DNA of 58,086 nucleotides from the NCBI GenBank assembly GCA_001802125.1, contig MGZK01000031.1, forward strand, positions 1 to 58,086, read 5' to 3'. Shown piece by piece: positions 36,457 through 51,828 of the stretch. The stretch comes from Geobacteraceae bacterium GWC2_55_20 (lineage in GTDB: Bacteria; Desulfobacterota; Desulfuromonadia; Geobacterales; Pseudopelobacteraceae). The notes beneath the pieces were generated by a model. The model saw only the letters and a list, made by a program, of their open reading frames with translations. It did no database searches and was not told the origin of the DNA. Within the stretch, counting starts at the first letter, position 1. Every line of letters starts with the position of its first letter. The position numbers were made by a program, and so were the translations under genes.

Positions 36457-36506
36457 TGTGACTGCTGTCTCCTGTCCGGAGATGGCGGCTGAACCGGAAA
36501 TACTGC

Positions 36507-36535
36507 TTGAGGAATCAGCAGCGGCATAGTACAAA
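36507..36535 (+). promoter_or_regulatory. probable selC promoter
   Basis: TTGAGG (36507-36512) and TACAAA (36530-36535) are 17 bases apart, and the tRNA starts 13 bases after the -10. Both boxes match consensus at four positions; context supports it. Confidence 0.45.
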
Positions 36536-36547
36536 AGGTTGCTATAC

Positions 36548-36645: not shown

Positions 36646-36656
36646 ATAATATTTTT

Positions 36657-36694
36657 CCGGGGAGCAGGCGGTTTCGCCTCTCCCCGGTTTTATT
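36657..36694 (+). terminator. rho-independent terminator of selC
   Basis: CCGGGGAG (36657-36664) pairs with CTCCCCGG (36680-36687), with an inner AGGCG/CGCCT stem, followed by TTTTATTT. It begins 12 bases after the tRNA's CCA. Confidence 0.9.
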
Positions 36695-36766
36695 TGACAC
36701 TCATCGCTTTTGCCGCCAACCGCGCACTTGCTTGTCCGGCTGCTGTGACAAGTCAGGCATGATTTG

Positions 36767-38617
36767 TCAGGAACTGGTAACGGCTCCTCTGTCAATTGCC
36801 CATTGAATCATTCCTTGTATGCGGTTGTGTAGCGAGGACATATCGACGGCGGGATCGTTTATGTCCACTTCCCTGGCTTGTGCCAGGCGGTGTTGCGCCC
36901 GTTGAATCTTGCCGGCATACAGATTCAATTCGGCAAGAAGGATGAGCATTTTTACATCGTCCTTCTTGAGTTTAAGGGCGTGTTTGACGGTATCGATCGC
37001 CTGCTGCAACCTGCCTGACGTCATGTAAGCCAAAGAAAGATTCATGAGTATTCTTGGTTCTGGCTGATGCGATGCCAGATAACTCTCGTACAGTTCAATC
37101 GCCGATTGCGGCATTTCCAGATCCAGATAGATGGCGCCGATCGTTACATACGGCTCGACATAATCAGGATTGAGCGCCAGTGACTTAACTAAGTGCAGTA
37201 AGGCCTGATCATACTTCCCCAATCTATAAAAGGCCTTGCCCATCGCATAGTGTGGCCTGAACTTGTTCGGGCTCTTCTTCAGAGTGTCGCTCCAGACCGA
37301 GATGCGGCTATGGAAAATATGGTTTCGCTTGACTGTCAATGCCCCAAAGACAAGCGACACCAGGCATAGACCAACAATAACCGCATTCCTCCAGAATATG
37401 CTGTCAATATTTACCACATGGTGCAGGTAGGCGACAATACCGGTGCAGAAGGCTATAGACGGCAGGTAGCTGTGATGCTCGAACATCAGGTCCGACATGG
37501 GCATGAAGGATGAGGATACCGAAATTGACAGGGGAAACCAGAAGATGGAGAAACAAGTCAGGTCGGTGCAGATGTTGCGTTCACGTCGTCGCAGCAGTCG
37601 CACACCCGCCACTACAAAAGCGATCCATACCAGGATTGAAATGATAATTTCAGGGTGATACAGGCTTTGGTAGAGTGGATAATCCGGATCAAAGTTTTGA
37701 TTGTAGGGGAGCACCAGCAGCCTGAAGTAGGAAAGGATGGCGCGCAGCTGTGTGATTGCATACTCGGATCTGCTGTAAATTCCACCGACGAGATCCGTTG
37801 CGGAGGATAACAAATTTTGGTTGTTGTCGATTTCATTGGCAAGATTGAGCAATATCAGGGGAGTCAAGCTCATGCTGGCGATATGGGGCGATAATCGTAT
37901 AAGAGTTTTACGAAGGGGCTTGTGCAACAGGATGGTATCGACCATGACAAGTGCTATCGGGACCGTCAGTACAATTTCCTTGGTCAGCAGCCCCAGAATC
38001 ATCGCCACAACTGACGCGACGTAGACGAACCTTCTGACGACAGCGGAACCATCGCTGCTCGACCGCAGGTATAACAACATCGTGGCCAGATAGAAGAATG
38101 TGCCGAGTGAAGTGAAGCGCTGTGTGATATAGGTGACCGACTGGGTCTGCAGTGGATGAACGAGAAAGATCAATGCCGCGAATAACGGTATGGTTAAATA
38201 TCGGTTCGCCCCGTTTTCATCGCTTCTGCGGCGAATTATTGACAAGAGCAGCTGATAGAGCATGATCGCGTTTGATATATGCACTGCAATGTTAAACAAA
38301 CGGTAAAATACGGGGCTTTTGCCCCCCAACAGGTAGTTCAGGCTGAACGACAGATAGGCAATTGGCCTGCTGGCAAAGCTGGTAGCCAGCTCAGGGTGTG
38401 AGAGCCGTGGCACGTAGTCCGATAAGAACTCATCGATATCAAGTAATTCGAAAAACATTTCAGGATCTTTGATCAACGGATTCTTTATTAAAAAGAAGCG
38501 GTCGTCAAAGACAAAGGGGTAGTGCAGCGTGAAACCATAAAGAGCGGCACCAATAATAATGAACATAAACCAATGCAAGGAACGCTGGGAGAAGATGTGC
38601 GTTAGCTTGTCATGCAT
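36767..38617 (-). CDS. TMTC-like multi-pass membrane protein with C-terminal TPR repeats
   Basis: The 616-residue protein has about eleven membrane segments over residues 1-400 and then TPR repeats (HYAMGKAFYRLGKYDQALLH; LMNLSLAYMTSGRLQQAID) to the end. FDDRFFLIKNP near the start resembles the acidic first-loop motif of GT-C glycosyltransferases, and the layout matches TMTC/DUF1736 proteins, some of which are O-mannosyltransferases in eukaryotes. A glycosyltransferase role is inference. The ATG at 38617 is preferred over one seven codons upstream because AAGGAG lies 9 bases before it. It follows the TPR lipoprotein gene on the same strand after a 105-base gap. Confidence 0.8.
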   Translation of the reverse strand: MHDKLTHIFSQRSLHWFMFIIIGAALYGFTLHYPFVFDDRFFLIKNPLIKDPEMFFELLDIDEFLSDYVPRLSHPELATSFASRPIAYLSFSLNYLLGGKSPVFYRLFNIAVHISNAIMLYQLLLSIIRRRSDENGANRYLTIPLFAALIFLVHPLQTQSVTYITQRFTSLGTFFYLATMLLYLRSSSDGSAVVRRFVYVASVVAMILGLLTKEIVLTVPIALVMVDTILLHKPLRKTLIRLSPHIASMSLTPLILLNLANEIDNNQNLLSSATDLVGGIYSRSEYAITQLRAILSYFRLLVLPYNQNFDPDYPLYQSLYHPEIIISILVWIAFVVAGVRLLRRRERNICTDLTCFSIFWFPLSISVSSSFMPMSDLMFEHHSYLPSIAFCTGIVAYLHHVVNIDSIFWRNAVIVGLCLVSLVFGALTVKRNHIFHSRISVWSDTLKKSPNKFRPHYAMGKAFYRLGKYDQALLHLVKSLALNPDYVEPYVTIGAIYLDLEMPQSAIELYESYLASHQPEPRILMNLSLAYMTSGRLQQAIDTVKHALKLKKDDVKMLILLAELNLYAGKIQRAQHRLAQAREVDINDPAVDMSSLHNRIQGMIQWAIDRGAVTSS

Positions 38618-38722
38618 GTCGGGAGACTCCTTTGGCATGCTTTACTGCAGGATTGCCTTTAATGAGAGCACCTTGGTGAACACAACCGGAATAGCGGAAT
38701 GGTCTGAAACATACGGCGTGGT

Positions 38723-40618
38723 TTACCGCTTTTTCGATTTCTTTTTGCGTACAGCCGCTTTCTTGGCGGCCCGGCTTTTTTTATTGCGAATGATCTGCTT
38801 TTTACCGGATGTTTTGCCTGATTTACGCAGTTGTTTTTTCACGGGCCGAGAGCTGTTATCCAGACTGCTTAGAAGCAGTTGCGGCCCGGCAAGAGCGGGG
38901 TCCGCTTTTTTTGCTGCCGCCAGCATCTCCCGCGATTCGGATAGAAGCCCGGTTTTCATATATGTCCGTCCCAGCGCGAACAACATTCTGGCGTTATCCG
39001 GTTGCAACTCGATTGCTTTTTTGTATTCGCTGACAGCCAGGCTATATTCCTTCTTGAATTCGTAAACTATTCCCAGGCGATAGTGGCGCTGCGGATCGTC
39101 GGGAGCCTTGTCCAGCCACTTTTTTACAAACGTAGTCAGGTCGTCATAGCGTTTCTGCTTGACATACATGGTGATCAGCGCATTCCTGGCCGCCTCATCC
39201 TCGCTGTTGAGCCTGAGAACCTCCCTGTAATGGTGTTCGGACTTGGCAGCCTGTGCTCTGAGCAGATAAATTCTTGCCAGCTCCCTGTGCCCCTCGATGT
39301 TTTCAGGATCCAGTTTGACCGCCGTTTCATACTCGTTGAGAGCTCGCTTCTGATCCCTGGTCCGATCATAGACACGGGCCAGATTCAGGTGATACAGGGG
39401 ATTGTCTCCTCTGAGACGGATCAATTCCCGGTATTGACCGGCCGCTTCGGTGAAGCTGCCGCGCCAGGTAAATATCTCTGCCAGTCGGCGATGAGCGTTG
39501 ACATTATCCGGTTCATTGGCAATTGCCAGGCGATACGCGTCTATGGCTTGATCGAGTTGCCCGATACGTTCATGAAGTAATCCCACATCATGGAACAGTG
39601 AGCCATCCTTGCTGCCGGACTTGATCAGCGCCGTGAATGTCACCATGGCATCGTCATCGCGACCGGCGGCCATTTGTGCCTTGCCAAGGTTATGCTGTAT
39701 TTCCGGCCAGGCCGGACGCCCCTTGAGCGCCGTCTGGTACGCGCCGATGGCCTGACCGTATTCGCGGGCCTTCATGTACTGGTCGCCTTTGAGGGCAAAA
39801 TCTTCGGGATCTATGGTTACATCCACACCTGCCAGAAGGTATTCCCTTCGTGCCGTTTCCCGGTCGCCGTTTTCCATCAGTACTTCTGCCAGCAGACGGT
39901 GCCCTTGTTTGTCCGTGGGGTTGGCGCCAATGTATGCTTGCAGCTCTTCAATCGCCTGGTCCAGACGGCCGGCTTTGCGCCAGGTATCGGCAAGCCCCAA
40001 CTTAAACCTGCCTTCCTTGGGTCTTAGTTTTTTCAGTATGAGAAATTCCTCTTCCGCCTTTATGTATTGCCCAAGCTGAAGATACGCTTTCGCAAGCCCT
40101 TCATGGATTGACGCATCATCCGCATATGCTTTCAATGCTTCGCTATAATGAAAGACCACCAGCGACGGGGTCGTGCCGTCACACAGGATTTGAGCCATGG
40201 CCAAGTGATAGCGTGGATCGGGATGCCCCATCAATCCTTGGGTCAGTTCGACCGATGCTTCTTCGTTCAGGCCGCGGTCATGCAGAATCAGTCCAAGATT
40301 GCCGTGGGCCTCTGCGATAGTGCCGTCTTTTTCCAGCGCCTCACGATAAAGGGATATTGCGGCATCGGATTTTGAGACTCTTTCCGCCTGCAGGGCTTTG
40401 ATGAAAAGTCCGGCACCCCCATTTGGACATGATTTGAGTATGGATTCTTCCTGTTTAGTGCGCTTGGCGGGATCTGTTATGGTTGAAAGCGTATTGAGGG
40501 TCGTACGTGCTTCCTGGCAGGTGTCTGGCCTCCCCAGTCCCCATCTGAAGCCGCAACAGCATGCGATTAAGGTGATCAGCGCAACTGAGCGTAACAGGGA
40601 GGTGTATGGATGTTTCAT
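38723..40618 (-). CDS. TPR-repeat lipoprotein with lysine-rich C-terminal tail
   Basis: This 631-residue protein begins with a lipoprotein-type signal ending LITLIAC (SVALITLIACCCG), then about 14 TPR units (for example AEAHGNLGLILHDRGLNEEA and HYRLGIVYEFKKEYSLAVSE). A final stretch of about 40 residues is very rich in lysine and arginine (KKSRAAKKAAVRKKKSKKR). TPRs suggest a protein-binding scaffold at the inner face of the outer membrane or in the periplasm. The basic tail could bind cell-wall polymers or acidic surfaces. The ATG at 40618 follows GGAGAG and overlaps the stop of the CHAP gene by 4 bases. Confidence 0.82.
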   Translation of the reverse strand: MKHPYTSLLRSVALITLIACCCGFRWGLGRPDTCQEARTTLNTLSTITDPAKRTKQEESILKSCPNGGAGLFIKALQAERVSKSDAAISLYREALEKDGTIAEAHGNLGLILHDRGLNEEASVELTQGLMGHPDPRYHLAMAQILCDGTTPSLVVFHYSEALKAYADDASIHEGLAKAYLQLGQYIKAEEEFLILKKLRPKEGRFKLGLADTWRKAGRLDQAIEELQAYIGANPTDKQGHRLLAEVLMENGDRETARREYLLAGVDVTIDPEDFALKGDQYMKAREYGQAIGAYQTALKGRPAWPEIQHNLGKAQMAAGRDDDAMVTFTALIKSGSKDGSLFHDVGLLHERIGQLDQAIDAYRLAIANEPDNVNAHRRLAEIFTWRGSFTEAAGQYRELIRLRGDNPLYHLNLARVYDRTRDQKRALNEYETAVKLDPENIEGHRELARIYLLRAQAAKSEHHYREVLRLNSEDEAARNALITMYVKQKRYDDLTTFVKKWLDKAPDDPQRHYRLGIVYEFKKEYSLAVSEYKKAIELQPDNARMLFALGRTYMKTGLLSESREMLAAAKKADPALAGPQLLLSSLDNSSRPVKKQLRKSGKTSGKKQIIRNKKSRAAKKAAVRKKKSKKR

Positions 40619-41217
40619 AGTTCTCTCCAAGTGAATGGCATGAAACGATTCAGAACTTCCCTGACCTTGTTGACGAACGTGTTGATCCGGCTGATACCGT
40701 TGTCTTCAGGCTGCTCTTCAGAAGGTGACCAGACCTGTGTTACTGCCGATAGCGCGACATTCTTACGTGAGCTGGTCTGGCTGTATTTATCCGTAACTCC
40801 GCAACAGAGAGCCCGCTTCCATTCATTCTCGTTTTTTGGACTCCATCTGCCTTTATATTCCTGATATGACAAATCTCCGCCAAAATTCATCTCGCTGACA
40901 TCGATTGCCGTTGCATTGCCCTGTTTGTCCAGGTGAACTTTTTCCACGTAGGCCACATGCCAATATCTTCCGAGGTCGAAAATGGCGACATCGCCTTCCG
41001 ATACTTCCGGGACTTCCCTGTTTTTGAGTGTTGTGATTTCCGTCACGTCATTTGGAACCGGAAATGAGGGTATCTTTGCTTTGACATAATCAACGCAATA
41101 TCCGTCCCTGATTACCCAGTCATTGCAGTTACAGCCGGCATGGCAACTCGTGCGTAGCGCAGCGATTACAACTGTTGTTGCAATTATCAAAAATGGTCTC
41201 ATGCTTGTACGTTCCAT
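40615..41217 (-). CDS. CHAP-domain (cysteine amidohydrolase-like) exported protein
   Basis: The 200-residue protein has an N-terminal signal segment (FLIIATTVVIAALRTSCHA). The CHAP fold follows: likely catalytic cysteine in DGYCVDYVKAK, GDVAIFDLGRYWHVAYVEKV with the histidine, and AIDVSEMNFGG as the third conserved block. CHAP enzymes cut peptidoglycan cross-bridges or other amide bonds. It is translationally coupled to the TPR lipoprotein (ATGA overlap). The start is uncertain: ATG 41217 has no clear binding site, and ATG 41202 is an alternative. Substrate is not known. Confidence 0.8.
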   Translation of the reverse strand: MERTSMRPFLIIATTVVIAALRTSCHAGCNCNDWVIRDGYCVDYVKAKIPSFPVPNDVTEITTLKNREVPEVSEGDVAIFDLGRYWHVAYVEKVHLDKQGNATAIDVSEMNFGGDLSYQEYKGRWSPKNENEWKRALCCGVTDKYSQTSSRKNVALSAVTQVWSPSEEQPEDNGISRINTFVNKVREVLNRFMPFTWREL

Positions 41218-41260
41218 ATTATTGTTTGATTATCTTCTCGCCTCAAATAACCATATTTTA

Positions 41261-41309
41261 ATCAGCAAAGCTTCCACCTGCCGGACAAGGAAGGGGAAGC
41301 TTTGCTGAT
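41261..41309. terminator. 15-bp perfect inverted repeat, probable terminator between pal-type gene and CHAP gene
   Basis: ATCAGCAAAGCTTCC (41261-41275) and GGAAGCTTTGCTGAT (41295-41309) are exact mirror copies with a 19-base loop. It sits downstream of the Pal-type gene (minus strand) and upstream of the CHAP gene. The following minus-strand bases (TTAAAATA) are only weakly T-rich, so its terminator role is likely but not certain. Confidence 0.55.
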
Positions 41310-41344
41310 GATGCAACGCGAGTCATGTAGATAACCGGGAAGCG

Positions 41345-41938
41345 CTATTTTACAATAACGAACTCATCGCGACGATTTTTAGCCCAGGCCGACTCATCAC
41401 TACCCTGAACAGCCGGTTTTTCTTTGCCGTAGCTGATAACGGAAAGGCGCTCGGGCTTGACTCCCATGGTGACCAGGTATTTTTGGGCAGCTTTGGCTCG
41501 ACGTTCGCCCAGCGCCAGATTGTATTCCGCCGAGCCGCGTTCGTCGCAGTTACCTTCGATGCGGACTTTTACCGATCTATCCTTCATCATTTCCGCCGCA
41601 TTTTTAGACAGTATGTCACGTGCGGAATCGGATACGTCGGCGGAGTCGAAATTGAAGTAGATCTTTTCCAGAGCCGACTGCAGTTGTTCTGTAGAAGACG
41701 ATTTCTGGGTCTGTTGAACAGGAAGCGGCTGGTCAGGCGTTTTTGTTGGGACAGGCGATGAAGCGTTTGACTGAGTGGAAGCGGTTGCAGCCGTTTTATC
41801 CGAACCGGCCTGCTTTACCGCCTGCGTCGGCGCAATCCCTTCATCCTTCTTGACAACTTCCTGTTTTGCACAGCCGGCCGTGATGAATACGGCAATAATA
41901 AATACGAAAACGGCATAAAACGGTACGCGCTTCTGCAT
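41345..41938 (-). CDS. pal: peptidoglycan-associated lipoprotein (Pal), OmpA-like
   Basis: This 197-residue protein has lipobox ITAGC (AVFITAGCAK), a serine/proline-rich linker, and an OmpA domain from about residue 90 with IYFNFDSADVSDSARDIL, the Pal-typical EGNCDERGSAEYNLALGERR and AWAKNRRDEFVI. Pal ties the outer membrane to peptidoglycan and works with TolB; tol genes are not adjacent here. AAGGAG lies 8 bases before the ATG. Because the tolQRAB genes are absent, a stand-alone Pal paralogue remains possible. Confidence 0.9.
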   Translation of the reverse strand: MQKRVPFYAVFVFIIAVFITAGCAKQEVVKKDEGIAPTQAVKQAGSDKTAATASTQSNASSPVPTKTPDQPLPVQQTQKSSSTEQLQSALEKIYFNFDSADVSDSARDILSKNAAEMMKDRSVKVRIEGNCDERGSAEYNLALGERRAKAAQKYLVTMGVKPERLSVISYGKEKPAVQGSDESAWAKNRRDEFVIVK

Positions 41939-42036
41939 GGTAAAACTCCTTGAAATATTTGATTTTAGATGAAAACAGGCAAACTTCGACGTCTGATCCG
42001 AAACAGGTGAATTTCCGGATATGTCTCTGGATAAGG

Positions 42037-42375
42037 CTATGCGAGAGTGATTGATATCGGGGGCGCTCGTGGAGGTAATGGGCTTGGCGACAACAGCGGT
42101 ACGGACGAATGGTGCGGATATGTTTCCGGGATGTACTCAACCGTAACTGGTAAAAGCGGGGTGGGGGGCGTTGCGATTACAGGGTCTATGTGAATTTTTA
42201 CGATGGTTTTCAGTACTGATTGGGCCGGTGTTTTGTCAAGAACCGCGCGCCGCATCGGTTTGGGTTTGTGCGGACGGGTCAGGTCGGGAACCCGTATTCC
42301 GGAAAAAACAAGAAACAGCGGGATCATCAGGATAATGAAACGGATCCATCGACTATGCTTTGCAAACGTACTCAT
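42037..42375 (-). CDS. small proline-rich single-pass membrane protein, hypothetical
   Basis: The 112-residue frame has one N-terminal membrane segment (FIILMIPLFLVFSGI) and a proline-rich remainder (PPTPLLPVTVEYIPETYP; PSPLPPRAPP). This layout recalls the N-terminal and periplasmic spacer of TonB-like proteins, but no TonB C-terminal domain follows. No clear ribosome binding site is present. The amino-acid pattern looks genuine, yet support is limited to composition and position. Confidence 0.45.
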   Translation of the reverse strand: MSTFAKHSRWIRFIILMIPLFLVFSGIRVPDLTRPHKPKPMRRAVLDKTPAQSVLKTIVKIHIDPVIATPPTPLLPVTVEYIPETYPHHSSVPLLSPSPLPPRAPPISITLA

Positions 42376-42477
42376 CGTGTCAACGTATCAGACTATTTGG
42401 TTCAATGCAAGTTGGTTGAATGTGAAACACAATTCTGACTCAGGTTAAATCGAACGGTATGAAATGTTTTTAACCAG

Positions 42478-42912
42478 TCACCCGTTACCGAGCATTTTTT
42501 TCATTTCCAGCACATTACCTCCGTTTGTCCGGCGATACTCCACCGAGTCCATCATTGATCGGATGATGTATATTCCGCGCCCTTTTTCATTCAGACTGCC
42601 GGGATCAAAGCATGGGCTCGGTATTGAACTCAGGTCGAAACCGCTGCCGGTGTCATAGACACGAATTGATATTTCACGGTCATTTACATTGATCCGGACA
42701 TGCACTTCTTTGTTCGGGTCGGTTGCATTGGCATGTTTGATGGCATTTACGATCGATTCGGTGAGCACAATGTTCAACTGGCTGGCAAGAATCTCACGGT
42801 CACAGACGGTGACATCGAATTCCCTGGCCATGTTTTCGCCGATCTTTCCTATCAACCCCAGATAGCGGGTCTGGTTTGGAATGGTTATTTCAAGGGCTAT
42901 CTTCTTTTTCAT
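42478..42912 (-). CDS. RsbW-type anti-sigma-factor serine kinase (HATPase_c_2)
   Basis: The 144-residue protein has a GHKL ATPase fold: N box LTESIVNAIKHAN, G1 box VYDTGSGFD and G2 box GRGIYIIRSMMD. This matches the RsbW/SpoIIAB class, which phosphorylates a STAS partner and otherwise binds a sigma factor or other target. The ATG at 42912 is chosen because GAGG lies 5 bases upstream; the frame is open further. It is the last gene of the operon and follows the STAS gene by 25 bases. The target it controls is not encoded here. Confidence 0.85.
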   Translation of the reverse strand: MKKKIALEITIPNQTRYLGLIGKIGENMAREFDVTVCDREILASQLNIVLTESIVNAIKHANATDPNKEVHVRINVNDREISIRVYDTGSGFDLSSIPSPCFDPGSLNEKGRGIYIIRSMMDSVEYRRTNGGNVLEMKKMLGNG

Positions 42913-42937
42913 AGCAGCCTCGCACCGGAACATATCT

Positions 42938-43273
42938 TCAGCGATTCTCCAACGCATCGTCAACGGTTGCGTATATATCAAAAACCCGATGAAGACGAGT
43001 CAGTTCAAACATTGATTTTACCTGGGTCTGAAGGCCGGAAAGTTTTATTGTCCCCTGGCGTGTCGAGGCGTTTTTGAACCCTGAAACCAGAACCCCCAAT
43101 CCGGAGCTGTCGATGAATCTTACTTCTTTCAGATCGACAATCACGTCTTTGGTGCCGGTTTCAAAAAGGTGATTCAATTCCGATTTCAGCTCTTCCGAGT
43201 TATTTGCGTCAAGACGTTCTTCTCTTACAAAAACGACAACTATTCCTTTGTTGGACTCGGTTTTAAGATTCAT
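42938..43273 (-). CDS. STAS-domain anti-anti-sigma factor
   Basis: The 111-residue single STAS domain has the phosphorylation site S56 in VRFIDSSGLGVLVSG. In partner-switching systems the unphosphorylated STAS protein captures the RsbW-like kinase and frees its target; a SpoIIE-type phosphatase reactivates it. Both partners are its direct neighbours: the phosphatase upstream (stop 14 bases before) and the kinase downstream. AGGAG lies 5 bases before the ATG. Confidence 0.92.
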   Translation of the reverse strand: MNLKTESNKGIVVVFVREERLDANNSEELKSELNHLFETGTKDVIVDLKEVRFIDSSGLGVLVSGFKNASTRQGTIKLSGLQTQVKSMFELTRLHRVFDIYATVDDALENR

Positions 43274-43287
43274 GCTGGCTCCTTATT

Positions 43288-46200
43288 TCAATTTATCTTT
43301 AATACCACCAGAGAGATGTCATCCTGAAACGTTCTGGAACCGGTAAAAGCTGACGCCGCGTCAAAGATAGAATCAATGATCTCTCTGGCCGATAAATGTG
43401 CCACACTCCCAAGATGAGCGCAAACTTTTTCGTTTCCGAACATTTCACCTTCGCTGTTAAAGGCTTCCGTCAATCCATCTGTATACAACAGTAGCACATC
43501 ACCGCTGACAAGTTCAATGTTACGCTCTTCAAAGATAACCGATGGTTTGACGCCGATTATCAGACCTTCCGTATCAAGTTCAATGCAGGCGCTTGACCCG
43601 GAGCGATGGATGATGGGGTGGTTGTGCCCGGCGTTGGAATAGGAAAGTTTGCCGCTTGCGGAATTGTATTTTGCATAGAACATGGATATGAATAATTCGG
43701 CCCTGGTAAGATCATCATGCAACTGGCTGTTGAGGATGTTCAATATGGAGCTGGCGCTGTAAGCCGAGTTTACCTGGGCTCTCAGAAGAGTACGAACCTC
43801 GGCCATGATCAGCGCGGCTCCGACACTGTGTCCCGAAACGTCGGCAATCATCAGGTCCACAGTATTTTCATTGCGAAGAAAGAAGTCATAGTAGTCACCA
43901 CCTACATGGGCGGCGGAGATGCATTTTCCAGCCAGCTCGACTCCGAATATTTCCGGGGCGTTGTCCGGAAGTAGTGAAATCTGTATCTGCTGTGCTATTT
44001 CCATGTCGCGCATCACACGGGCATTTTGCAGCAGAGCCCGTTCCTTTTGGTCACGTTCACGGTCTTTTGCATGCATTTCATGAACGATGGTTATCGCCTG
44101 CGCAAGTTGCCCGCAGAGGCTGGACAGCAGATTGATGAACTCCTGGGTGAACAGGCCGGCGATCGACTTGGAAAATACCGAGAGTATTCCAACCGCCTGT
44201 TCGCCTTCCCTTAAGATCGGAATGTGTGCAAATGAAATAATGCCCTCCGCCAGAGTGCGTTCCAGTGATAGTGTGTTTCCTGCCAGCCTGGCGTCGTTCG
44301 TGAAGTGAGCATTTCTGTCATGGTAGGCCATGTCGATATAAGGTGCACTTTCGGTATACCAGTGATTCTCGTTGATAAGTCTCCGGTTTGATCCCTGATA
44401 GCTGGTAACGGAAATGGAGCCGTTTTCATTTTTGAGTTGTATGATGGCCGCGTCGAGCTTGAATTCCTTCAGCAGCAGATTCAGCAGATCATCCATGATG
44501 ATTTGCAGATCGAGTGTGCGATTGATGATTTCGGAAGCCTTCAGCCTTACGAATAGTGATTCACGGCTCTGGTCGAGAGATGCTCTTACCGTGCTGTAAA
44601 TGTCGTAGACCGATTCCATGCGGGAACCCATGTCGGACAGAAAACTGTCCACGATCGCTCCGGCCGCGGCAGCTCCGACGGAGCCCGCCAATGTTTTCTC
44701 GGTATGCCGCTTCAGATTCGGAAGTTCGAATTCCGAAACGGCTCCATCCGAATTAAGTTCGCGATTGTTCGCATACAGGCTGATGGCGTTCTGCGCCTCC
44801 GTTTCCCCGATAAACTTGGCCATCAGTGTCACGAACTGTGCTTTAGTGACCGGTTTTGAAAGCCGTTTTTGTTCAGTCTGCCGATAGCCGCGTTCCCGCT
44901 CGAAGACGGCTATGTACTTTGATACCTGATCGCGTTCATTGTCTGTCTGCTTCAACATTAGCGAGCATGTTATATAGATGCTTATGTTGAACAGCATGCT
45001 CCAGAACAGTGAATGACTCCAGAGATCCATCCCCGAAAGACCGAACAGGGCGGTGGGCCTGAGCAGGGTAATTCCGAATGGACCTTCCGTCAGCAGGTCA
45101 GCCGGCAGCCAGCCGGACCTGCTGAATGATGGCAGCAGCAGCGTGTAAAACCAGATCATGAATCCTAACAGGATCCCGCCGATAGCTCCGGCCTTGTTAC
45201 CGCGCCTCCAGTAGAGACCGCCAAGCATGGCCGGCATGAATTGGGCCGCGGCCGAAAATGAAATCAGCCCCATATTGACCAGCATGTAAGAATCGCCAAC
45301 GATGCGGTGATAGAAGTACCCCATCATTATGACCAGAAATATGCCGAAGCGTTTGAGATTGATCAGCAGCACCGGGAACCAGACACGCGGTGTGCATCGG
45401 ACAATGATCGGCATGAAGATGTGGTTCAGGAGCATGGTCGATATGGCCACGGATTCAACCATCACCATGCCGGCGGCGGCGGAAAGACCTCCCAGAAATG
45501 CCAGTTGGGCAATGGCGCTGTTGCCGGTGACGAGCGGTATGCTGATAACGAAAAAGTCGGCGCCTTGATTGCTGCCGGTCGTCAGGATACCTCCCAGAGC
45601 AATCGGCATCACAAACAGGTTGATAAGAAACAGGTAGGCCGGAAAGAGCCACATCGCAGTGGATATATGCTTTTCATCGGAATTTTCTATGACCATCACG
45701 TGAAACTGCCGGGGCAGAAGCATGATTGCCCCCATTGAGAGGAACAGCATCGTGAAGGTGGGAATGCTGTCCGTGTTTCTGCTTGAGGTGTCAAAGGTAA
45801 AAAGCCGGTCAAATGCAGCGGGATCAAATGCCTTGAAACGCGTGAAGATGTCCGTAACGCCATCAAACAGAAAGTAGGTCACAAAAATACCAACACCAAG
45901 AAGGCTGATCAGTTTAATCAGGGACTCGAATGCAACCGCCGCGACCAGCCCTTCATGGCGATCGGACGAAACCAGTTTGCGTGCGCCGAAAATGATGCTG
46001 AAGATCGACAGAATCACAGCCAGAATAAGGCCGGTTGGCAGTTTCGCGCCTGAACCGAGCCGTGTGAGCGGGATGTCGTCGGCCTGCAACCCGCTTACCA
46101 GGAAAAAACTGTGGGAAACCGCCTTAATTTGCAGGGCGATATAGGGCATGATGCCGAGCACCGCGATAATCGTCACCAACGCGCCGAGCCAGAGCGATTT

Positions 46201-46536
46201 CCCGTAACGCAGGCTGATGAAGTCGGCAATCGAAGTGATGTTGTTCTCTTTACTGATCTTGACGATGCGACGAAGCAGGAAAAGCCAGGAAAAAGCCGCC
46301 AGCGAAGGTCCGAGATAGATCATCAAGAAATCTATCCCGGTGGTGGAAGCCTTGCCGACACTGCCGTAAAATGTCCAGGATGTGCAGTATACCGCGATGG
46401 ACAAGGAATATACGATGGGATTGGAGACGATGCTGCGGCCGATTTCCTTGCGATGGTGGGCATACCATGCCACCAGAAAGATAATCGCGGTGTAAAGTGC
46501 GGATATGGATGTAGCGTAGACGATTCCGGTATTCAT
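43288..46536 (-). CDS. sodium:solute-symporter - STAC - GAF - SpoIIE phosphatase fusion
   Basis: This 1,082-residue fusion has four visible modules. Residues 1-530 are an SLC5/SSS transporter with about 13 membrane segments (VYCTSWTFYGSVGKASTTG; RYGKSLWLGAL). Residues 600-630 have the STAC signature (HTEKTLAGSVGAAAAGAIVD), known from transporter-linked sensor kinases such as CbrA. Residues 670-820 are GAF-like. Residues 842-1082 are a PP2C/SpoIIE phosphatase with metal-site acids in GGDYYDFF, IADVSGHSVGAAL, LLYTDGLTEA and DDISLVVL. The start at 46536 overlaps the small membrane gene by 4 bases. Transporter kinases with this front half are known; here a phosphatase replaces the kinase. The ligand is not identifiable from sequence. 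Confidence 0.88.
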   Translation of the reverse strand: MNTGIVYATSISALYTAIIFLVAWYAHHRKEIGRSIVSNPIVYSLSIAVYCTSWTFYGSVGKASTTGIDFLMIYLGPSLAAFSWLFLLRRIVKISKENNITSIADFISLRYGKSLWLGALVTIIAVLGIMPYIALQIKAVSHSFFLVSGLQADDIPLTRLGSGAKLPTGLILAVILSIFSIIFGARKLVSSDRHEGLVAAVAFESLIKLISLLGVGIFVTYFLFDGVTDIFTRFKAFDPAAFDRLFTFDTSSRNTDSIPTFTMLFLSMGAIMLLPRQFHVMVIENSDEKHISTAMWLFPAYLFLINLFVMPIALGGILTTGSNQGADFFVISIPLVTGNSAIAQLAFLGGLSAAAGMVMVESVAISTMLLNHIFMPIIVRCTPRVWFPVLLINLKRFGIFLVIMMGYFYHRIVGDSYMLVNMGLISFSAAAQFMPAMLGGLYWRRGNKAGAIGGILLGFMIWFYTLLLPSFSRSGWLPADLLTEGPFGITLLRPTALFGLSGMDLWSHSLFWSMLFNISIYITCSLMLKQTDNERDQVSKYIAVFERERGYRQTEQKRLSKPVTKAQFVTLMAKFIGETEAQNAISLYANNRELNSDGAVSEFELPNLKRHTEKTLAGSVGAAAAGAIVDSFLSDMGSRMESVYDIYSTVRASLDQSRESLFVRLKASEIINRTLDLQIIMDDLLNLLLKEFKLDAAIIQLKNENGSISVTSYQGSNRRLINENHWYTESAPYIDMAYHDRNAHFTNDARLAGNTLSLERTLAEGIISFAHIPILREGEQAVGILSVFSKSIAGLFTQEFINLLSSLCGQLAQAITIVHEMHAKDRERDQKERALLQNARVMRDMEIAQQIQISLLPDNAPEIFGVELAGKCISAAHVGGDYYDFFLRNENTVDLMIADVSGHSVGAALIMAEVRTLLRAQVNSAYSASSILNILNSQLHDDLTRAELFISMFYAKYNSASGKLSYSNAGHNHPIIHRSGSSACIELDTEGLIIGVKPSVIFEERNIELVSGDVLLLYTDGLTEAFNSEGEMFGNEKVCAHLGSVAHLSAREIIDSIFDAASAFTGSRTFQDDISLVVLKIN

Positions 46537-46790
46537 TCGTCTTTTTTCTCGTCGGGGTTCTTGGTGTGTGAGGAAAATGACCGCATGAAGAGGTAGATGA
46601 CAAAGATCGAAAAGGCCCATCCGATTGTCAGATAGAGCAGCATCAATGGGAATCCGAACAGTGTGACCGGTTTGTTGAAGATGCGCAGGAACGGGAAGGT
46701 CATCATTATTATTCCCAGGACAAAGAATATTATCCACGATTCTCGCAGCTGCAATCTATGCATCACTCTGGAAAACAACCGTTTGATCAT
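46533..46790 (-). CDS. small two-pass membrane protein, probable partner of the symporter fusion
   Basis: The 85-residue protein has two membrane segments (IIFFVLGIIMMTFPFL and LLYLTIGWAFSIFVIYLFM) and a charged tail (HTKNPDEKKDE). Small two-helix proteins of this kind (DUF3311/DUF4212-like) commonly precede SSS symporters. It overlaps the genes on both sides by 4 bases, which indicates coupled translation with the kinase-like gene upstream and the symporter fusion downstream. Confidence 0.8.
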   Translation of the reverse strand: MIKRLFSRVMHRLQLRESWIIFFVLGIIMMTFPFLRIFNKPVTLFGFPLMLLYLTIGWAFSIFVIYLFMRSFSSHTKNPDEKKDE

Positions 46791-48349
46791 TGCTTCAGTT
46801 CCTCATATATTCTGCTGGCAAGACATTCGGTGGAACTCATCGAATCGAGGGTGATAATTCTGCCTTCGCCCGGCCCGGGTGGTTCAAATTCCGCCTGCTG
46901 TTGCCAGAGGAGTTCGATTCTTCCATCTGAAACGGATACTCCTCGTTCGGAACGCCGGATCAGTCTCCGCTTTTGTTCCTCTTCATCGCAGGATACCGAG
47001 AGGATCACAAAGTCAGCGCCATGCCTGACCGCCAAAGCAGCCAGCACGGAGCGGTCGGAGGCCCTTTTGAAGCTGGCGTCGATCAGAACCGAGCGGTTTG
47101 CGCGAAGTTCATTTCCAGCAAGCCGTTTCAGTTGGGCATAGACATCCTCGGTGACCGCTTTGTCGTACAACCCCTGTCCATACCGTTCATGAACCGATAC
47201 ACCTGGCATTTTTCCTGAACAGAATTTGCGGATTGAGTCGGAGTTATAAACTGAAATTCCCAGTTCGAATGCCAGCTGATCCGCCAGTTTGCTTTTGCCG
47301 CTCCCCATGGTCCCGCAGGTTATGAAAAGGGTCGGGCGCAATCGGCTTCTTTCGCAATAACCCCTGGCAAGCCGGAAGTAGCGTATGGCGCGTTCTTTTG
47401 CAATTTGCTTCATGCCCGTATCAATTGTCTCGTCGTTCAGAAGGAAACTCTCAACCTTTCCTCGAATAAAAGCCCTGTAAACCTTGTAGAAACCCGCAAG
47501 TTTCTCCAATTCAGGATCGCGGGATAATTTCAGGTAGGTTTTCAAAACGAGAGCCGACAGATCGCTGCGACCGTGAAAGTCTAGGTCCATCAGCAGAAAG
47601 GCGATATCTGCGGCTGTATCACAGTAACGAAAGCGTTCGTTGAATTCGATGCAGTCAAAAATATACACCCTGTCATCAACCAGGCAGATGTTTTCAAGGT
47701 GCAGATCACCGTCGCATTCACGGATGTAGCCCTGTTCCATCCTGCGGGTGAAGAGGGACTCGTTGGATTTTGCAAATCCCTCAACCCATGAACGTATTGC
47801 CTCCAGTTCGCTTGAAGGAAGAGTACTGGTTGTGTAACACTGCGCCTGTTCGAAGTTCTCGTTCCAGTTGGCCAGAATTTTGTCAATAGTTCCGAAGCCG
47901 GATATGTATCGCGAGGAGGCGATCCCGGCATGGAAGTCGGCTATTACGCCCGCAATTCTTTCGATCATCGCCGTTGTCACGCCATCTGCATCAATCAGTC
48001 TGTCCAGCATCCGCTCAGCAGGGAGCCGTTTCATCATCACGGCATAGTCCAATACCGTCCCGCTGCCGTTAAACGATGCACCGTCGCCGTCCGCACGGAG
48101 TTCGATAACCCCTTCGTAGATGTCGGGACAGAGGCGCCGGTTGAGACGAACCTCCTCATTGCAGTAAAAATGGCGCTTTTCGAGTGTGGAAAAATCCAGA
48201 AAACCGAAATCCACCGGTTTTTTAATTTTGAAAGCGTGGCTGTCGGTCAGGAAAATCCATGATACATGTGTTTGCACCAGTTCGACCGTAGCGGTACGAA
48301 CCGGGTAGTTTGCAGGAATCATCAACGATTTCAGTGTGGTAGGTTTCAT
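46787..48349 (-). CDS. two-domain kinase: aminoglycoside-phosphotransferase-like + P-loop (zeta/AAA_33) kinase
   Basis: In this 520-residue protein, residues 1-340 match an APH-type kinase (COG2187-like) with catalytic DGDLHLENICL and metal-binding YIFDCIEF. Residues 345-520 are a P-loop kinase with Walker A FITCGTMGSGKSKLA, related to zeta-toxin/gluconate-kinase-like proteins. Such double kinases are widespread but their substrates are not established; drug resistance should not be assumed. It is the first gene of the operon that continues into the symporter-phosphatase, STAS and RsbW-type genes, each coupled or close. Confidence 0.85.
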   Translation of the reverse strand: MKPTTLKSLMIPANYPVRTATVELVQTHVSWIFLTDSHAFKIKKPVDFGFLDFSTLEKRHFYCNEEVRLNRRLCPDIYEGVIELRADGDGASFNGSGTVLDYAVMMKRLPAERMLDRLIDADGVTTAMIERIAGVIADFHAGIASSRYISGFGTIDKILANWNENFEQAQCYTTSTLPSSELEAIRSWVEGFAKSNESLFTRRMEQGYIRECDGDLHLENICLVDDRVYIFDCIEFNERFRYCDTAADIAFLLMDLDFHGRSDLSALVLKTYLKLSRDPELEKLAGFYKVYRAFIRGKVESFLLNDETIDTGMKQIAKERAIRYFRLARGYCERSRLRPTLFITCGTMGSGKSKLADQLAFELGISVYNSDSIRKFCSGKMPGVSVHERYGQGLYDKAVTEDVYAQLKRLAGNELRANRSVLIDASFKRASDRSVLAALAVRHGADFVILSVSCDEEEQKRRLIRRSERGVSVSDGRIELLWQQQAEFEPPGPGEGRIITLDSMSSTECLASRIYEELKQ

Positions 48350-48490
48350 GGTGTCGGCTCACGTTCATTTGAAGAGTAACATCAAACCGGCCTGTCCGCA
48401 AGCGGTCACATGTCTTGAATATCGTTTGACCACGATAACGATTCATGTTAGTTTTTGAAACCAATTTACTCAGAAATGGAATGCTTCGAA

Positions 48491-50197
48491 ATGTCGTTGC
48501 GCCCGATCATACTTCTGTCCTGCCTGCTGCTGGCTTCTTGTGCCACCAGCATGCCCCAACCCGAAGATAACTCTTCAGCAGTCCACAAATCATTCGACAG
48601 CCATTCCCGCACTTTATACCTGTATTCACGCGCCAGGCTTGCTTCCCATGATGGTGATTATCCGTCCGCATTGAGCTTGCTGCGCGAGGCTATTGAACTT
48701 GATCCCGGTTCCGCGATGCTGCATGCCGAAGTAGCGGAAATCAAGCTGAAAATAGGTCAGGTGCCTGAAGCTCTGGAATACATCGAGAAGGCGATCAAGC
48801 TTGATCCCGACTATCGTCCTCCCTATGTCATCGCCGGCATCCTGATGTCATCGGCCGGCAAGGATTGGGAAGCGGCCGATTATCTGCGCAAGGCGGTCAA
48901 GCTGGACCCCTCCAAGGAAGATGCCTACCTGCATCTGGCACTTTCGCTGACGAGGCTGTTCGAGTATGAAGAAACCGTGGCAACGCTCAAGTCCCTGATA
49001 AAAGTGAACCCGGATTCTGTTCTGGGCTATTATTACCTGGGAAGAACCTACAGTCAGATGAAACTGTATCGTGATGCGCTCGGTTACTTCAAAAAAACAC
49101 TCGAATTGCGTCCGGAATTTGACCAGGCCGCGATTGACATGGCTGCCACCTATGAGTCAATGGGTGATTACCCGCAGGCCATCGAGAGCTATCGTGCCCA
49201 ACTCGGCCGGGATGAAACCAGGGGCGCGGTACTGCAGCGCTTGATTCAGCTGCTGATACAGCAGCGCCGTTTTCCGGAGGCGCTCGAACACCTGAAAAAT
49301 GCCGTGAAATCAGGTCTTGGTGGTCAGGAAACCCTGCGCAAGATCGGACTGGTTCACCTCGAACTGGAACAGTTTGACGAGGCGATTGCCGTTTTCGGTG
49401 AAATTCTGGAGAAAGACTCCTCCGCCCACCATATCAGGCTCTATCTCGGTATTGCATATGAGGAAAAAGGGGAGCTTGACAAGGCCTATGACGAGTTTAT
49501 AAAAATTCCAGCTGATGTAGCTCCTTATCCGGAGGCGGTCGGCCATATCGCCTTCATCCTCAAGGAAAAGGGCGACAATGACCAGGCCATCGAAATACTC
49601 AAGAAAGCCATTTCCACCAATGCCGGGCATGTTGAGTTGTACCTGAACCTGGCCGCACTATATGAATCCATTGGCAACGTTGACGGCAGCCTGGCATTTC
49701 TTTTTGAAAACGAACATCTGTTTCCCAAGGAATCGCGTTACCAGTTCCGTATCGGCGTGCTGCTGGACAAGCTTGGCAAACGCGCGGAATCCATCGAACG
49801 GATGAAGAAGGTGCTCGTTCTCAACCCGCGTGATGCACAAGCGCTTAACTACCTGGGGTATTCATACGCCGAGATGGGCATCAACCTGGAGGAAGCTCTC
49901 AAACATATCCAGCTGGCGGTTGAAATACGTCCCAATGATGCCTTCATACTGGACAGCTACGGCTGGGTCAACTTCAAACTCAAACGCTACGATGAAGCGG
50001 TCCGGCTGCTGGAGGATGCCTTCAGCCTGGTGGGTGACGATTCCACCATTGCCGAACATCTCGGGGACGCCTATGCCGCCCGGCGTGAATTCAGGAAAGC
50101 TCTCAAACAGTACCGCAAGGCGCTGGAGATCGACCCTGACCGCAAGGAACTGGCGGACAAGATTCGCAAGTTCAAAGGGGAGCATGGTGAAAAATGA
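48491..50197 (+). CDS. TPR-repeat lipoprotein
   Basis: The 568-residue protein has a lipobox LLASC (LLSCLLLASCATS) and about 15 TPR repeats (for example SALSLLREAIELDPGSAMLH; LNYLGYSYAEMGINLEEALK). It is an outer-membrane or periplasmic scaffold; related proteins appear in cell-envelope and secretion functions. The frame is open from 48455; the ATG at 48491 is preferred because the signal peptide starts there and GGAA lies 9 bases upstream. The stop overlaps the peptide-binding protein gene by 4 bases. Confidence 0.85.
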   Translation: MSLRPIILLSCLLLASCATSMPQPEDNSSAVHKSFDSHSRTLYLYSRARLASHDGDYPSALSLLREAIELDPGSAMLHAEVAEIKLKIGQVPEALEYIEKAIKLDPDYRPPYVIAGILMSSAGKDWEAADYLRKAVKLDPSKEDAYLHLALSLTRLFEYEETVATLKSLIKVNPDSVLGYYYLGRTYSQMKLYRDALGYFKKTLELRPEFDQAAIDMAATYESMGDYPQAIESYRAQLGRDETRGAVLQRLIQLLIQQRRFPEALEHLKNAVKSGLGGQETLRKIGLVHLELEQFDEAIAVFGEILEKDSSAHHIRLYLGIAYEEKGELDKAYDEFIKIPADVAPYPEAVGHIAFILKEKGDNDQAIEILKKAISTNAGHVELYLNLAALYESIGNVDGSLAFLFENEHLFPKESRYQFRIGVLLDKLGKRAESIERMKKVLVLNPRDAQALNYLGYSYAEMGINLEEALKHIQLAVEIRPNDAFILDSYGWVNFKLKRYDEAVRLLEDAFSLVGDDSTIAEHLGDAYAARREFRKALKQYRKALEIDPDRKELADKIRKFKGEHGEK

Positions 50198-51828
50198 GTG
50201 TCTCAACGGGCAGATGCCTGCTGTTTCTCCTTTTGTGCCTTTGCCTGACAGCCTGCGATAGTTCCGGGACTCACCAGCCCACAATCAAACGAGTTGAATC
50301 CACAACGCCGGTCACCGGCGATTCCCTGGTCGAGGGCACCATCGGTGAGGCTTCGACCCTGATCCCGGTGCTGGCCTCCGATTCCTCTTCCCATGCCGTG
50401 GCCGGCCAGATCTACAACGGGCTGGTCAAATACGACAAGAACCTTAAGATCACCGGTGACCTGGCCGAGTCATACGATATCTCTCCCGACGGCCTGACCA
50501 TCACCTTTCATCTGCGGCGCGGTGTCAAATGGCACGACGGCGCGCCTTTCACCGCCAGGGACGTGCTCTACACCTACCGCGTCATCATCGACCCCAAAAC
50601 TCCCACCGCCTATGCCGAGGATTTCAAACAGGTCAAAAACATCTCCGCGCCTGACGTCCATACCATCCGGGTGGTGTATGCCACGCCATTCGCGCCGGCC
50701 CTGGCTTCGTGGGCAACCAACATACTGCCGGCCCATCTGCTGGAAGGGCAGGATATCACCAAGAGTCCACTGGCGCGCAACCCGGTCGGCACTGGTCCAT
50801 ACCGTTTCAAGGAGTGGGTGGCAGGACAGAAGATCGTGCTGGAAGCCAATCCTGAATATTTCGAAGGCCGGCCCTACATCGACCGTTATATCTATCGCAT
50901 CATTCCCGATACCTCAACGATGTACATGGAACTGAAATCCGGCGCGCTCGACCTGATGGGTCTGACCCCGGTGCAGTATGCCCGCCAGACATCCGGTCGC
51001 AGATTTACCTCCCTGTTCAATAAATTCCGTTATCCCTCATCCGGCTATCTCTACATGGGTTACAATCTGCGTCATCCTTTGTTTGGCGACAAGCGCATCC
51101 GCCAGGCGATGACCGCCGCAATCAACAAGGATGAGCTGATCCAGGGGGTGCTGTTCGGCATGGGACAGAAGGCTCACGGCCCGATTGTGCCGGGGCGCTG
51201 GGCCTACAACCCGAATGTCAAGGATATCGCATACGACCCGAAACATGCCGCCGAACTGCTGGCCGAGGCCGGCTGGAAGGAAAAAAACAGCGAAGGGATC
51301 CTGGTAAGGGATGGCAAACCGTTCAAATTCACGATCCTGACCAACCAGGGCAACCAGCAGCGCCTGATGACCGCCCAGATCGTGCAGCAGCGCCTCAGGC
51401 AGGTCGGTATCGACGTCAGGATCCGCATCGTGGAGTGGGCCGCTTTTCTCAAGGAGTTCATAAACAAGGGCAATTTCGAGGTTGTCTTGCTGGCCTGGAA
51501 TATATCTCAGGATCCGGATATGTACGATATCTGGCACTCCAGTAAAACCAATCCGAGTGAACTGAATTTTGTCGGTTATAAAAATCCCGAGGTGGATCGA
51601 TTGCTGGTGGAAGGGCGTGGTACCTTTGATATCGAAAAGCGCAAGCGGGCCTACTTCCGCATCCAGGAGATCCTGGCAGACGAGCAGCCCTATACCTTCC
51701 TGTATGTGCCCGATTCTTTACCGGTGGTAAGCGCCCGCATTCGCGGCGTGGAACCTGCTCCGGCCGGTATCGGATATAACCAGATCAAGTGGTACGTACC
51801 GAAGAATGAGCAGGTTTACGTGCCGTGA
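50194..51828 (+). CDS. peptide/nickel-type ABC transporter substrate-binding lipoprotein
   Basis: This 544-residue family-5 solute-binding protein has lipobox LTAC (LLLCLCLTACDSS). Conserved SBP_bac_5 blocks include PDGLTITFHLRRGVKWHDG, NPVGTGPYRFKEWVAGQ and FGDKRIRQAMTAAINKDELI. It binds peptides or similar solutes outside the cytoplasmic membrane. The matching permease genes lie 2.9 kb downstream in the same direction, separated by genes on the other strand. The start overlaps the TPR gene stop. Confidence 0.93.
   Translation: MSVSTGRCLLFLLLCLCLTACDSSGTHQPTIKRVESTTPVTGDSLVEGTIGEASTLIPVLASDSSSHAVAGQIYNGLVKYDKNLKITGDLAESYDISPDGLTITFHLRRGVKWHDGAPFTARDVLYTYRVIIDPKTPTAYAEDFKQVKNISAPDVHTIRVVYATPFAPALASWATNILPAHLLEGQDITKSPLARNPVGTGPYRFKEWVAGQKIVLEANPEYFEGRPYIDRYIYRIIPDTSTMYMELKSGALDLMGLTPVQYARQTSGRRFTSLFNKFRYPSSGYLYMGYNLRHPLFGDKRIRQAMTAAINKDELIQGVLFGMGQKAHGPIVPGRWAYNPNVKDIAYDPKHAAELLAEAGWKEKNSEGILVRDGKPFKFTILTNQGNQQRLMTAQIVQQRLRQVGIDVRIRIVEWAAFLKEFINKGNFEVVLLAWNISQDPDMYDIWHSSKTNPSELNFVGYKNPEVDRLLVEGRGTFDIEKRKRAYFRIQEILADEQPYTFLYVPDSLPVVSARIRGVEPAPAGIGYNQIKWYVPKNEQVYVP

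Follow-up and report, generated by a model that had tools for sequence, protein, structure and literature searches.

What does a protein that begins as a transporter and ends as a phosphatase control, and through which partners? This question is raised by a locus on contig MGZK01000031.1 (assembly GCA_001802125.1) of Geobacteraceae bacterium GWC2_55_20, of which a stretch of 58,086 nucleotides (hereafter the window) was analysed. On its minus strand, positions 42478-46790 carry genes for (i) a CbrX-like small membrane protein, (ii) a fusion protein composed of an SLC5 (sodium:solute symporter, SSS) transporter domain, a STAC domain (a name that reportedly goes back to Korycinski et al., 2015), a GAF domain and a PP2C/SpoIIE phosphatase domain, (iii) a STAS protein and (iv) an RsbW-type kinase. 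All four genes named in a preliminary description of this DNA were found at the place and on the strand that it had assigned to them. The locus marries the SLC5-STAC chassis to a partner switch, i.e. it unites two known kinds of system in a new combination, and we consider it probable that the products form a membrane-anchored partner switch, in which the CbrX-like protein and the SLC5-STAC and GAF parts control the phosphatase and hence the STAS protein and the RsbW-type kinase. The observations cover the domains with their catalytic and phosphorylation-site residues, the conservation of the operon, co-inheritance within the genus, variants with other outputs, and PP2C-STAS-kinase operons lacking the front half of the fusion.

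Domain composition of the fusion protein and its partners

Over residues 8-634 the fusion could be aligned to the experimental structure of the SLC5-STAC part of Pseudomonas CbrA (10ed_A, E 8.6e-78); residues 662-840 matched 2qyb_A (E 6.3e-55), a crystal structure entitled as the GAF domain region of a putative membrane protein of Geobacter sulfurreducens PCA. The Pfam SSF model gave no match to the window fusion at E 0.01 (it exceeded its cut-off in one relative, L129), and TIGR03648 matched with E 4.2e-7 (28.8 bits, cut-off 320.75); the alignment with CbrA, the TIGR03648 match and the predicted fold together suggest that the front half is a symporter. Neither HisKA nor HATPase_c was detected in the fusion by the Pfam scan, SpoIIE being present instead, and the protein is therefore not an SLC5/STAC histidine kinase. 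The replacement of the kinase by a phosphatase behind a CbrA-like front, as previously proposed, is thus borne out, and so is the symporter-to-SpoIIE fusion itself, which occurs at full length in relatives of the same class.

The AlphaFold2 (AF2) model of the fusion (predicted local distance difference test, pLDDT, 78; predicted template modelling score, pTM, 0.58) contains transporter helices, STAC helices (residues 565-576, 578-589, 605-620 and 622-635), the GAF domain, a long helix and the PP2C domain. The long helix is unbroken from residue 798 to 855, with pLDDT below 50 at 827-837, and is likely to be a coiled-coil signalling linker. In Foldseek searches the transporter part matched SGLT1/2, the sialic acid symporter, NIS and CHT1, and the phosphatase part matched the phosphatase domains of RssB, Rv1364c, SpoIIE and SiaA; CbrA (10ed) was not among the best 50 matches listed.

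PP2C residues D881 (just before the Pfam stretch), D899, D1020, D1072 and D1073 were kept in all 20 aligned fusions, each of which also contained the GAF region and aligned throughout the transporter and STAC region. The serine S56 previously named as the phosphorylation site of the STAS protein was confirmed, D55, S56 and S57 being invariant in 57/57 rows (one of them the window). The same fraction of kinase rows (57/57) contained the N-box (E75/N79), G1 (D110-G112-G114) and G2 (G134-R135-G136) residues, in the numbering of the 167-aa open reading frame (ORF). The kinase matched the RsbW/SpoIIAB models below their cut-offs and HATPase_c_2 above its cut-off. The traits of a partner switch, i.e. 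PP2C aspartates, STAS serine and GHKL serine kinase, are accordingly encoded side by side. Ratios of nonsynonymous to synonymous substitution rates (dN/dS) relative to locus L044 were 0.058 (fusion), 0.008 (STAS), 0.113 (RsbW) and 0.020 (CbrX), and the four genes are under purifying selection; for L007 and L008 some values were not computable, the synonymous sites being saturated.

Coupling ion and solute pocket

The Na2 site of CbrA is occupied by lysine K196, and CbrA transport is reported to be proton-driven (PMC13022988; PMC7096432). The equivalent residue of the window fusion, K208, was kept in 19 of the 20 fusion rows and in 12/12 rows of a mixed set including CbrA. Because this Na2-site lysine is conserved, coupling is probably to protons rather than to sodium; the SLC5 part of the earlier assignment as a sodium:solute symporter stands, whereas its sodium coupling is doubtful. 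Nine positions, i.e. K196 and eight residues of the pocket, were mapped; six are identical to CbrA, while S53, A56 and F248 of CbrA correspond to T52, T55 and S267 in the window fusion. This set is nearer to that of RpuS-type, Vibrio and Marinobacter proteins than to the histidine pocket of CbrA. An SLC5-STAC protein of pNGR234b, the replicon that carries RpuS (PMC9100948), was 39% identical over 567 columns; it shares the lysine, and its residue is small where CbrA has F248.

Conservation and distribution of the operon

The neighbours of SSS-STAC-SpoIIE proteins were tabulated, as the preliminary description had suggested, for 66 fusion loci (L072 and L074-L078 were excluded as SLC5-kinases or partial matches). 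Genes for CbrX, STAS and RsbW adjoin the fusion in 55 of them: 47 also contain the gene upstream of CbrX, and eight lack it in the stretch examined (L024 is cut upstream). Five further loci end at a contig edge (four downstream, one upstream). Among the 47 complete loci are two, L047 and L065, in which stops or frameshifts interrupt the fusion gene.

Within the class of the window genome, 242 of 244 genomes matched the fusion alignment at E ≤ 0.001, phosphatase-only matches included. The best fusion match had E = 0 in 200 of the 244, a value that does not by itself prove a PP2C end, although the rows listed (1910 to ~1636 bits) span the model; the kinase was found in 226 at 1e-20, a few of these matches being weak. 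In the genus of the window (33 genomes), all 22 genomes with a strong kinase match had a fusion with E = 0 (a full-length row was listed for 20, all but G442 and G584), as did none of the other 11. Ten of these 11 gave no kinase match, and the weak match in the eleventh, G466, belongs to a different switch. Class-wide, the fusion with E = 0 was present in 198 of the 226 kinase-bearing genomes and in 2 of the 18 others (G535, G580). Since the sampled genomes are related, this association represents co-inheritance and not independent events. Of 395 genomes drawn from the phylum, 274 matched the fusion alignment at E ≤ 0.001, and the listed rows that run from start to end of the model were all from the class. 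None of 383 matching records in a plasmid collection covered 80% of the fusion.

Natural variants and exchange of the output domain

None of the five sampled genomes of genus g254 had a fusion with E = 0, and one of them (G594) had no kinase match. The operons of the four kinase-bearing genomes (L170-L173) consist of the upstream gene, a solo PP2C domain in an ORF of 254-276 aa, STAS and RsbW, without CbrX, SLC5, STAC or GAF. The PP2C motifs and DSSG were present in 4/4, and the GRG box in three of the four kinases (it was not found in that of L170). In the PP2C tree the solo domains fell into one clade (98/99) with the fusions and with a REC-PAS-SpoIIE protein of the window's own genome (contig C124); the solo group held at 91/100, and branching inside the larger clade was poorly supported. 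Loss of the front half in g254 is the simplest reading of this distribution, of which the tree gives no proof.

The CbrX-like ORF was absent wherever the operon lacks the transporter half, i.e. in 4/4 operons of g254 and 5/5 fetched operons of family f116. The transporter half and CbrX thus come or go together in these operons, and STAS-RsbW exist without them.

Outside its own family, the most similar front halves in the phylum cover ~3-850 of the model with scores near 1000 bits. Out of 13 such other-family loci, the five scanned with a readable output (L124, L126, L127, L129, L134; L135 was excluded) all ended in GAF-HisKA-HATPase. Elsewhere in the phylum this front half is thus followed by a histidine kinase, which means that the output domain was exchanged.

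The CbrX-like protein and the AAA_33 gene

Residues W19, P33, F34, F38, P48, Y53 and W58 of the CbrX-like protein were invariant in 60/60 rows (the window being one). The profile of its family matched an upstream ORF in 9 of the 13 other-family SLC5-STAC loci (L127, L129 and L134 among them; E ~1e-20 to 1e-27) and one ORF each before an SLC5-STAC-GGDEF-EAL protein of Azoarcus and a Cupriavidus relative (E ~1e-14); it found nothing credible at the neighbourless fusions or at Vibrio or Marinobacter loci. As the same family precedes SLC5-STAC proteins with other outputs, the small protein appears to be tied to the SLC5-STAC chassis and not to one output. The Azoarcus pair lies on a plasmid of Azoarcus sp. 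KH32C (L183:3778-7165), where the CbrX-like ORF is followed by a third kind of output on this chassis. Small hydrophobic ORFs were also seen directly upstream of Vibrio SLC5-STAC kinases (L072:5769-5951 and L074:5770-5952); the CbrX profile is blind to both, and they possibly represent a further CbrX-like family.

The CbrX-type traits that fit the 85-aa protein are its position, gene overlap, size and two hydrophobic stretches. Pfam gave only a sub-threshold DUF5381 match for the window protein, and a weak DUF3311 match in 6 of 15 aligned members of the family. The mctP operon next to RpuS contains a small gene that is likewise annotated as DUF3311 (PMC9100948), a connection that we treat as a lead only.

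A relative of the AAA_33 gene that precedes CbrX was found at the same place in 51 of the 66 fusion loci (47 with all neighbours and four cut downstream), in 4/4 solo-phosphatase operons and in three of the five fetched f116 operons. The gene may belong to the switch, because it is kept beside STAS-RsbW even in operons without CbrX and the fusion (L165-L167). Pfam found no match in the N-terminal half of its product, which we presume to resemble proteins of the 'aminoglycoside phosphotransferase family'.

Relation to known systems

The closest described system is CbrX-CbrA, the Pseudomonas SLC5-STAC-PAS-histidine kinase transceptor. The likeness includes SLC5 and STAC, aligned over residues 8-634, the Na2-site lysine, a gene for a two-helix small protein just upstream with overlapping reading frames, and a cytosolic sensor domain before the output. 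In contrast, the window has GAF in place of PAS, PP2C in place of the histidine kinase, and STAS plus RsbW in place of the response regulator CbrB, and differs at the three pocket positions given above. The RpuS/RpuR (pyruvate) and CrbS/CrbR (acetate) systems share the SLC5-STAC front, but theirs are histidine kinases with response regulators. With the RsbU/RsbP/SpoIIE-RsbV/SpoIIAA-RsbW/SpoIIAB switches the locus has in common a PP2C phosphatase, a STAS protein with the DSSG serine and a GHKL kinase (N, G1 and G2 boxes), all encoded together; unlike in those switches, the phosphatase here is attached to the C-terminal end of a transporter-like membrane protein, and the genome lacks a SigB/F/G factor above cut-off, none being seen in the operon.

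SLC5-STAC modules have been reported joined to histidine kinases or a diguanylate cyclase (PMC7096432), and the transceptors built on them have been described almost only as histidine kinases (PMC7918813). A literature search, mostly without subscription papers, yielded no description of an SLC5-STAC-PP2C system. The earlier claim that the system is undescribed therefore holds for the literature searched, with one partial precedent: the domain survey of a 2021 review includes SSS proteins of Actinobacteria with GAF, PP2C_SIG and HATPase_c domains (PMC7918813). These likewise unite SSS with a SpoIIE-type phosphatase domain; however, in the available part of that review they appear as SMART architectures with HATPase_c only, and no CbrX, STAS or operon is described for them.

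It is an unsolved question by what means a transporter signals to its output, and here the product of the output, dephospho-STAS, is easy to measure. Natural controls are provided by the solo-phosphatase operons, the kinase-only operons, the histidine-kinase versions and the partnerless second copies. In Geobacter-like bacteria, a protein on-off switch could thus be reset by the transporter, depending on its state, or by the metabolism to which it is linked. If the more specific version of our reading given below is true, CbrX-SLC5-STAC would be a general transport-to-signal adaptor for histidine kinases, GGDEF-EAL enzymes or PP2C phosphatases.

Proposed mechanism and alternative explanations

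In the mechanism that we propose, the CbrX-like protein and SLC5-STAC would make up a transporter of the CbrA kind, or a receptor shaped like one, that is probably coupled to protons; the GAF domain would add a second, cytosolic input. A conformational change would then be relayed by STAC and by the long helix between GAF and PP2C to the phosphatase, the active form of which is probably a dimer. RsbU-type phosphatases are under coiled-coil control, and PP2C phosphatases controlled by GAF domains have been described (PMC12143880); the PP2C step would probably be controlled in a similar way by the helix that joins it to GAF. By analogy with the phosphorylation cycle of known SpoIIE/RsbU systems, active PP2C would strip the phosphate from Ser56 of STAS, and dephospho-STAS would bind the RsbW-type kinase, so that the captive target of the latter is freed; with PP2C off, the kinase would rephosphorylate STAS and recapture the target. 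The cycle is deduced from those systems and the proton coupling from one conserved lysine; the dimer, the direction of signalling and the role of the transporter state as input (in the earlier wording, that transport or solute binding sets phosphatase activity) are likewise inferences. A more specific version, in which a class-wide switch is gated by a proton-coupled, CbrX-stabilised SLC5 transceptor and STAS dephosphorylation releases a target other than SigB/F/G, is put forward tentatively, its prospects falling slightly short of even.

Several points weigh against the transporter-controlled switch. Histidine left the kinase activities of CbrA unchanged in vitro, and a CbrA construct without SLC5 still signalled, the SLC5 domain only modulating the kinetics (PMC7096432). 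The physical binding of CbrX to the SLC5 domain in CbrA speaks for the switch, but CbrX is dispensable for growth on histidine (PMC13022988), and its role has been ascribed to translational coupling and not to the identity of the peptide (PMC6591292). A link of the 85-aa protein to Pseudomonas CbrX was sought in the PDB with a single sequence and with two profiles, which gave nothing credible, and the confidence of the AF2 model is moderate. Six of the 66 fusion loci (L040, L041, L057, L062, L064 and L067, of which L064 is itself cut downstream) have none of the expected neighbours; L040, L041 and L062 are second copies in assemblies that also hold the operon-type loci L044, L007 and L014, and L057 lies near L040 in the PP2C tree. 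The association of kinase and fusion is looser in the class than in the genus, since 28 of the 226 kinase-bearing genomes have no fusion with E = 0 and the two kinase-less genomes named above do. Finally, all 12 sampled genomes of family f116 keep the kinase and none has a fusion with E = 0; the five fetched operons comprise the upstream gene with STAS-RsbW (three) or STAS-RsbW (two), without CbrX or a nearby phosphatase. As these operons have the kinase without an adjoining phosphatase, STAS-RsbW can run on other inputs.

Part of this evidence suits a reading in which GAF is the sensor for an intracellular metabolite and SLC5-STAC serves as an uptake module and membrane anchor with little signalling role. 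The proposed sensor of CbrA is its cytosolic PAS domain (PMC7096432), its transmembrane domains are dispensable for signal detection (PMC6591292), GAF control of PP2C has the precedent cited above, and the GAF region is present in 20/20 aligned fusions. The transporter and STAC, however, are aligned throughout the same 20 proteins in a gene under purifying selection, and the four solo-phosphatase genomes, which lack SLC5, STAC and GAF alike, do not distinguish between the two readings; we regard the GAF-sensor explanation as doubtful, though a real contender. It is far less plausible that the true substrate of the fusion is another STAS protein and that the adjoining STAS-RsbW are merely co-transcribed. 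The eight STAS and six SpoIIE matches in the genome and the persistence of STAS-RsbW without the fusion in f116 would allow this, but STAS-RsbW adjoin 55 of 66 fusion loci (five more being cut), are co-inherited with the fusion in the genus, and stand beside a bare phosphatase domain in g254. As for a frameshift or assembly artefact, broken copies do occur (L047, L065, L176 and L177), and one listed match (G494) holds a stop; yet the fusion is a full-length single frame in the isolates Oryzomonas japonica Red96, Trichlorobacter thiogenes, Pelotalea chapellei and Geobacter sp. OR-1, and the listed class-wide rows span the whole model. With so many full-length copies, isolates included, the chance of an artefact is negligible and this explanation was rejected. 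The split genes (e.g. L047:2613-5948 and L177:1390-4036, besides L176 and L065), interrupted by in-frame stops or frameshifts in some assemblies, are either pseudogenes or assembly errors.

The membrane-anchored partner switch that we prefer also requires a target of the kinase. The window's own genome gave five sigma-70 matches above the TIGR02937 cut-off, which agrees with the published set of six sigma factors, one of them RpoN, in G. sulfurreducens (PMC2700814). None of its four TIGR02980 matches exceeded the cut-off, and a SigB/F/G-type target was rejected for this genome. No target gene was found in the operon, the next genes downstream in the window encoding a 112-aa orphan and a Pal lipoprotein, and across the 78 loci compared, each ORF cluster beyond the kinase was present in 25 loci at most. 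RpoS is the partner-switch target in Shewanella and Pseudomonas (CrsR-CrsA and HsbR-HsbA; PMC6482189), and the window genome has an RpoS-like factor (C59) in addition to lacking a SigB/F/G factor above cut-off. RpoS had to be read from E-values only, as 0/244 genomes pass the TIGR02394 cut-off; on this measure, an RpoS-strength match is lacking in 4 of 10 kinase-less and 3 of 23 kinase-matching genomes of the genus, a weak association in the expected direction. On the other hand, G246, G406 and G417 (full completeness) carry the kinase and a fusion with E = 0, yet their sole sigma-factor match on this measure is of RpoD strength; an RpoS-strength match is kept by 12 of the 18 genomes without the kinase. 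RpoS as an obligate target is thereby weakened; it looks non-obligate, and we consider it an unlikely target overall. Since the kinase is widespread in the class (226/244 genomes) and no SigB/F/G factor exceeded the cut-off in the one genome examined for it, the data point to an undescribed regulator.

Operon layout and reading frames

As shown in Table 1, the operon is larger than the four genes first described, which are all part of it: the AAA_33 kinase-like gene has to be added, because it overlaps the small membrane protein gene by 4 bases and is conserved alongside it. The CbrX-like stop and the fusion start also share a 4-base overlap, a junction found in 48/59 relatives. The fusion and STAS genes are separated by 14 bases, and STAS and the kinase by 25 bases if the latter begins at 42912. 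Its ORF is open to a TTG at 42981 (167-aa ORF), the start first proposed; as many relatives begin at the conserved Met at 42912, this is most likely the start.

Table 1. Features of the operon and of the encoded proteins
Feature	Position in window	Strand	Basis or remark
AAA_33 kinase-like protein, 520 aa	46787..48349	-	First gene of operon; Pfam AAA_33 E 2e-22, residues 341-491
CbrX-like small membrane protein, 85 aa, two hydrophobic stretches	46533..46790	-	Reading frame
Fusion, 1,082 aa, SLC5(SSS)-STAC-GAF-helical linker-PP2C/SpoIIE	43288..46536	-	Reading frame, Pfam, structure alignment, AF2 model
SLC5/SSS transporter domain, ~residues 8-530	44947..46515	-	10ed_A alignment, Foldseek
K208 (Na2-site lysine, CbrA K196 equivalent)	45913-45915	-	Alignment with 10ed_A
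STAC domain, ~residues 558-637	44626..44865	-	Inside CbrA alignment; four model helices
GAF domain, residues 675-815	44092..44514	-	Pfam GAF_2 E 7.4e-12
Long GAF-phosphatase helix, residues 798-855	43972..44145	-	AF2 model
PP2C/SpoIIE phosphatase domain, residues 890-1081	43294..43869	-	Pfam SpoIIE E 1.4e-50
STAS protein, 111 aa, Ser56 within FIDSSGLG	42938..43273	-	Pfam STAS E 4.8e-22; TIGR00377 above cut-off
RsbW-type GHKL serine kinase, 144 aa	42478..42912	-	HATPase_c_2 E 2.7e-24

Promoter and terminator scans gave no clear excess over shuffled sequence, and an Rfam scan of positions 36000-50300 matched nothing except tRNA-Sec, i.e. a selenocysteine tRNA gene at 36548-36645 (ARAGORN; Rfam RF01852). 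The 112-aa ORF located 3' of the kinase (42037-42375) has no family match and recurs, besides the window's own genome, only in L044 among the loci compared.

Other partner-switch components

A second SLC5-STAC-GAF-SpoIIE fusion (1,080 aa) is encoded on contig C134 of the same genome (L178:4650-7889); no CbrX, STAS or kinase gene adjoins it in the 13 kb that were retrieved. This protein may be a further input to the STAS protein of the window. The REC-PAS-SpoIIE response regulator of contig C124 (L181:3248-4834), whose phosphatase is closer to that of the fusion than those of C106 and C14, is a candidate for another input. Contig C106 (L179) carries a Cache-HAMP-SpoIIE protein with STAS and a 298-aa HATPase_c_2 frame, and contig C14 (L180) a CBS-SpoIIE protein, a weak HATPase_c_2 match (for which 'RsbT-like' is a guess) and STAS. 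In G466, the member of the genus without the window system, genes for REC-SpoIIE, STAS and an RsbW-type kinase are interleaved with other genes (L175).

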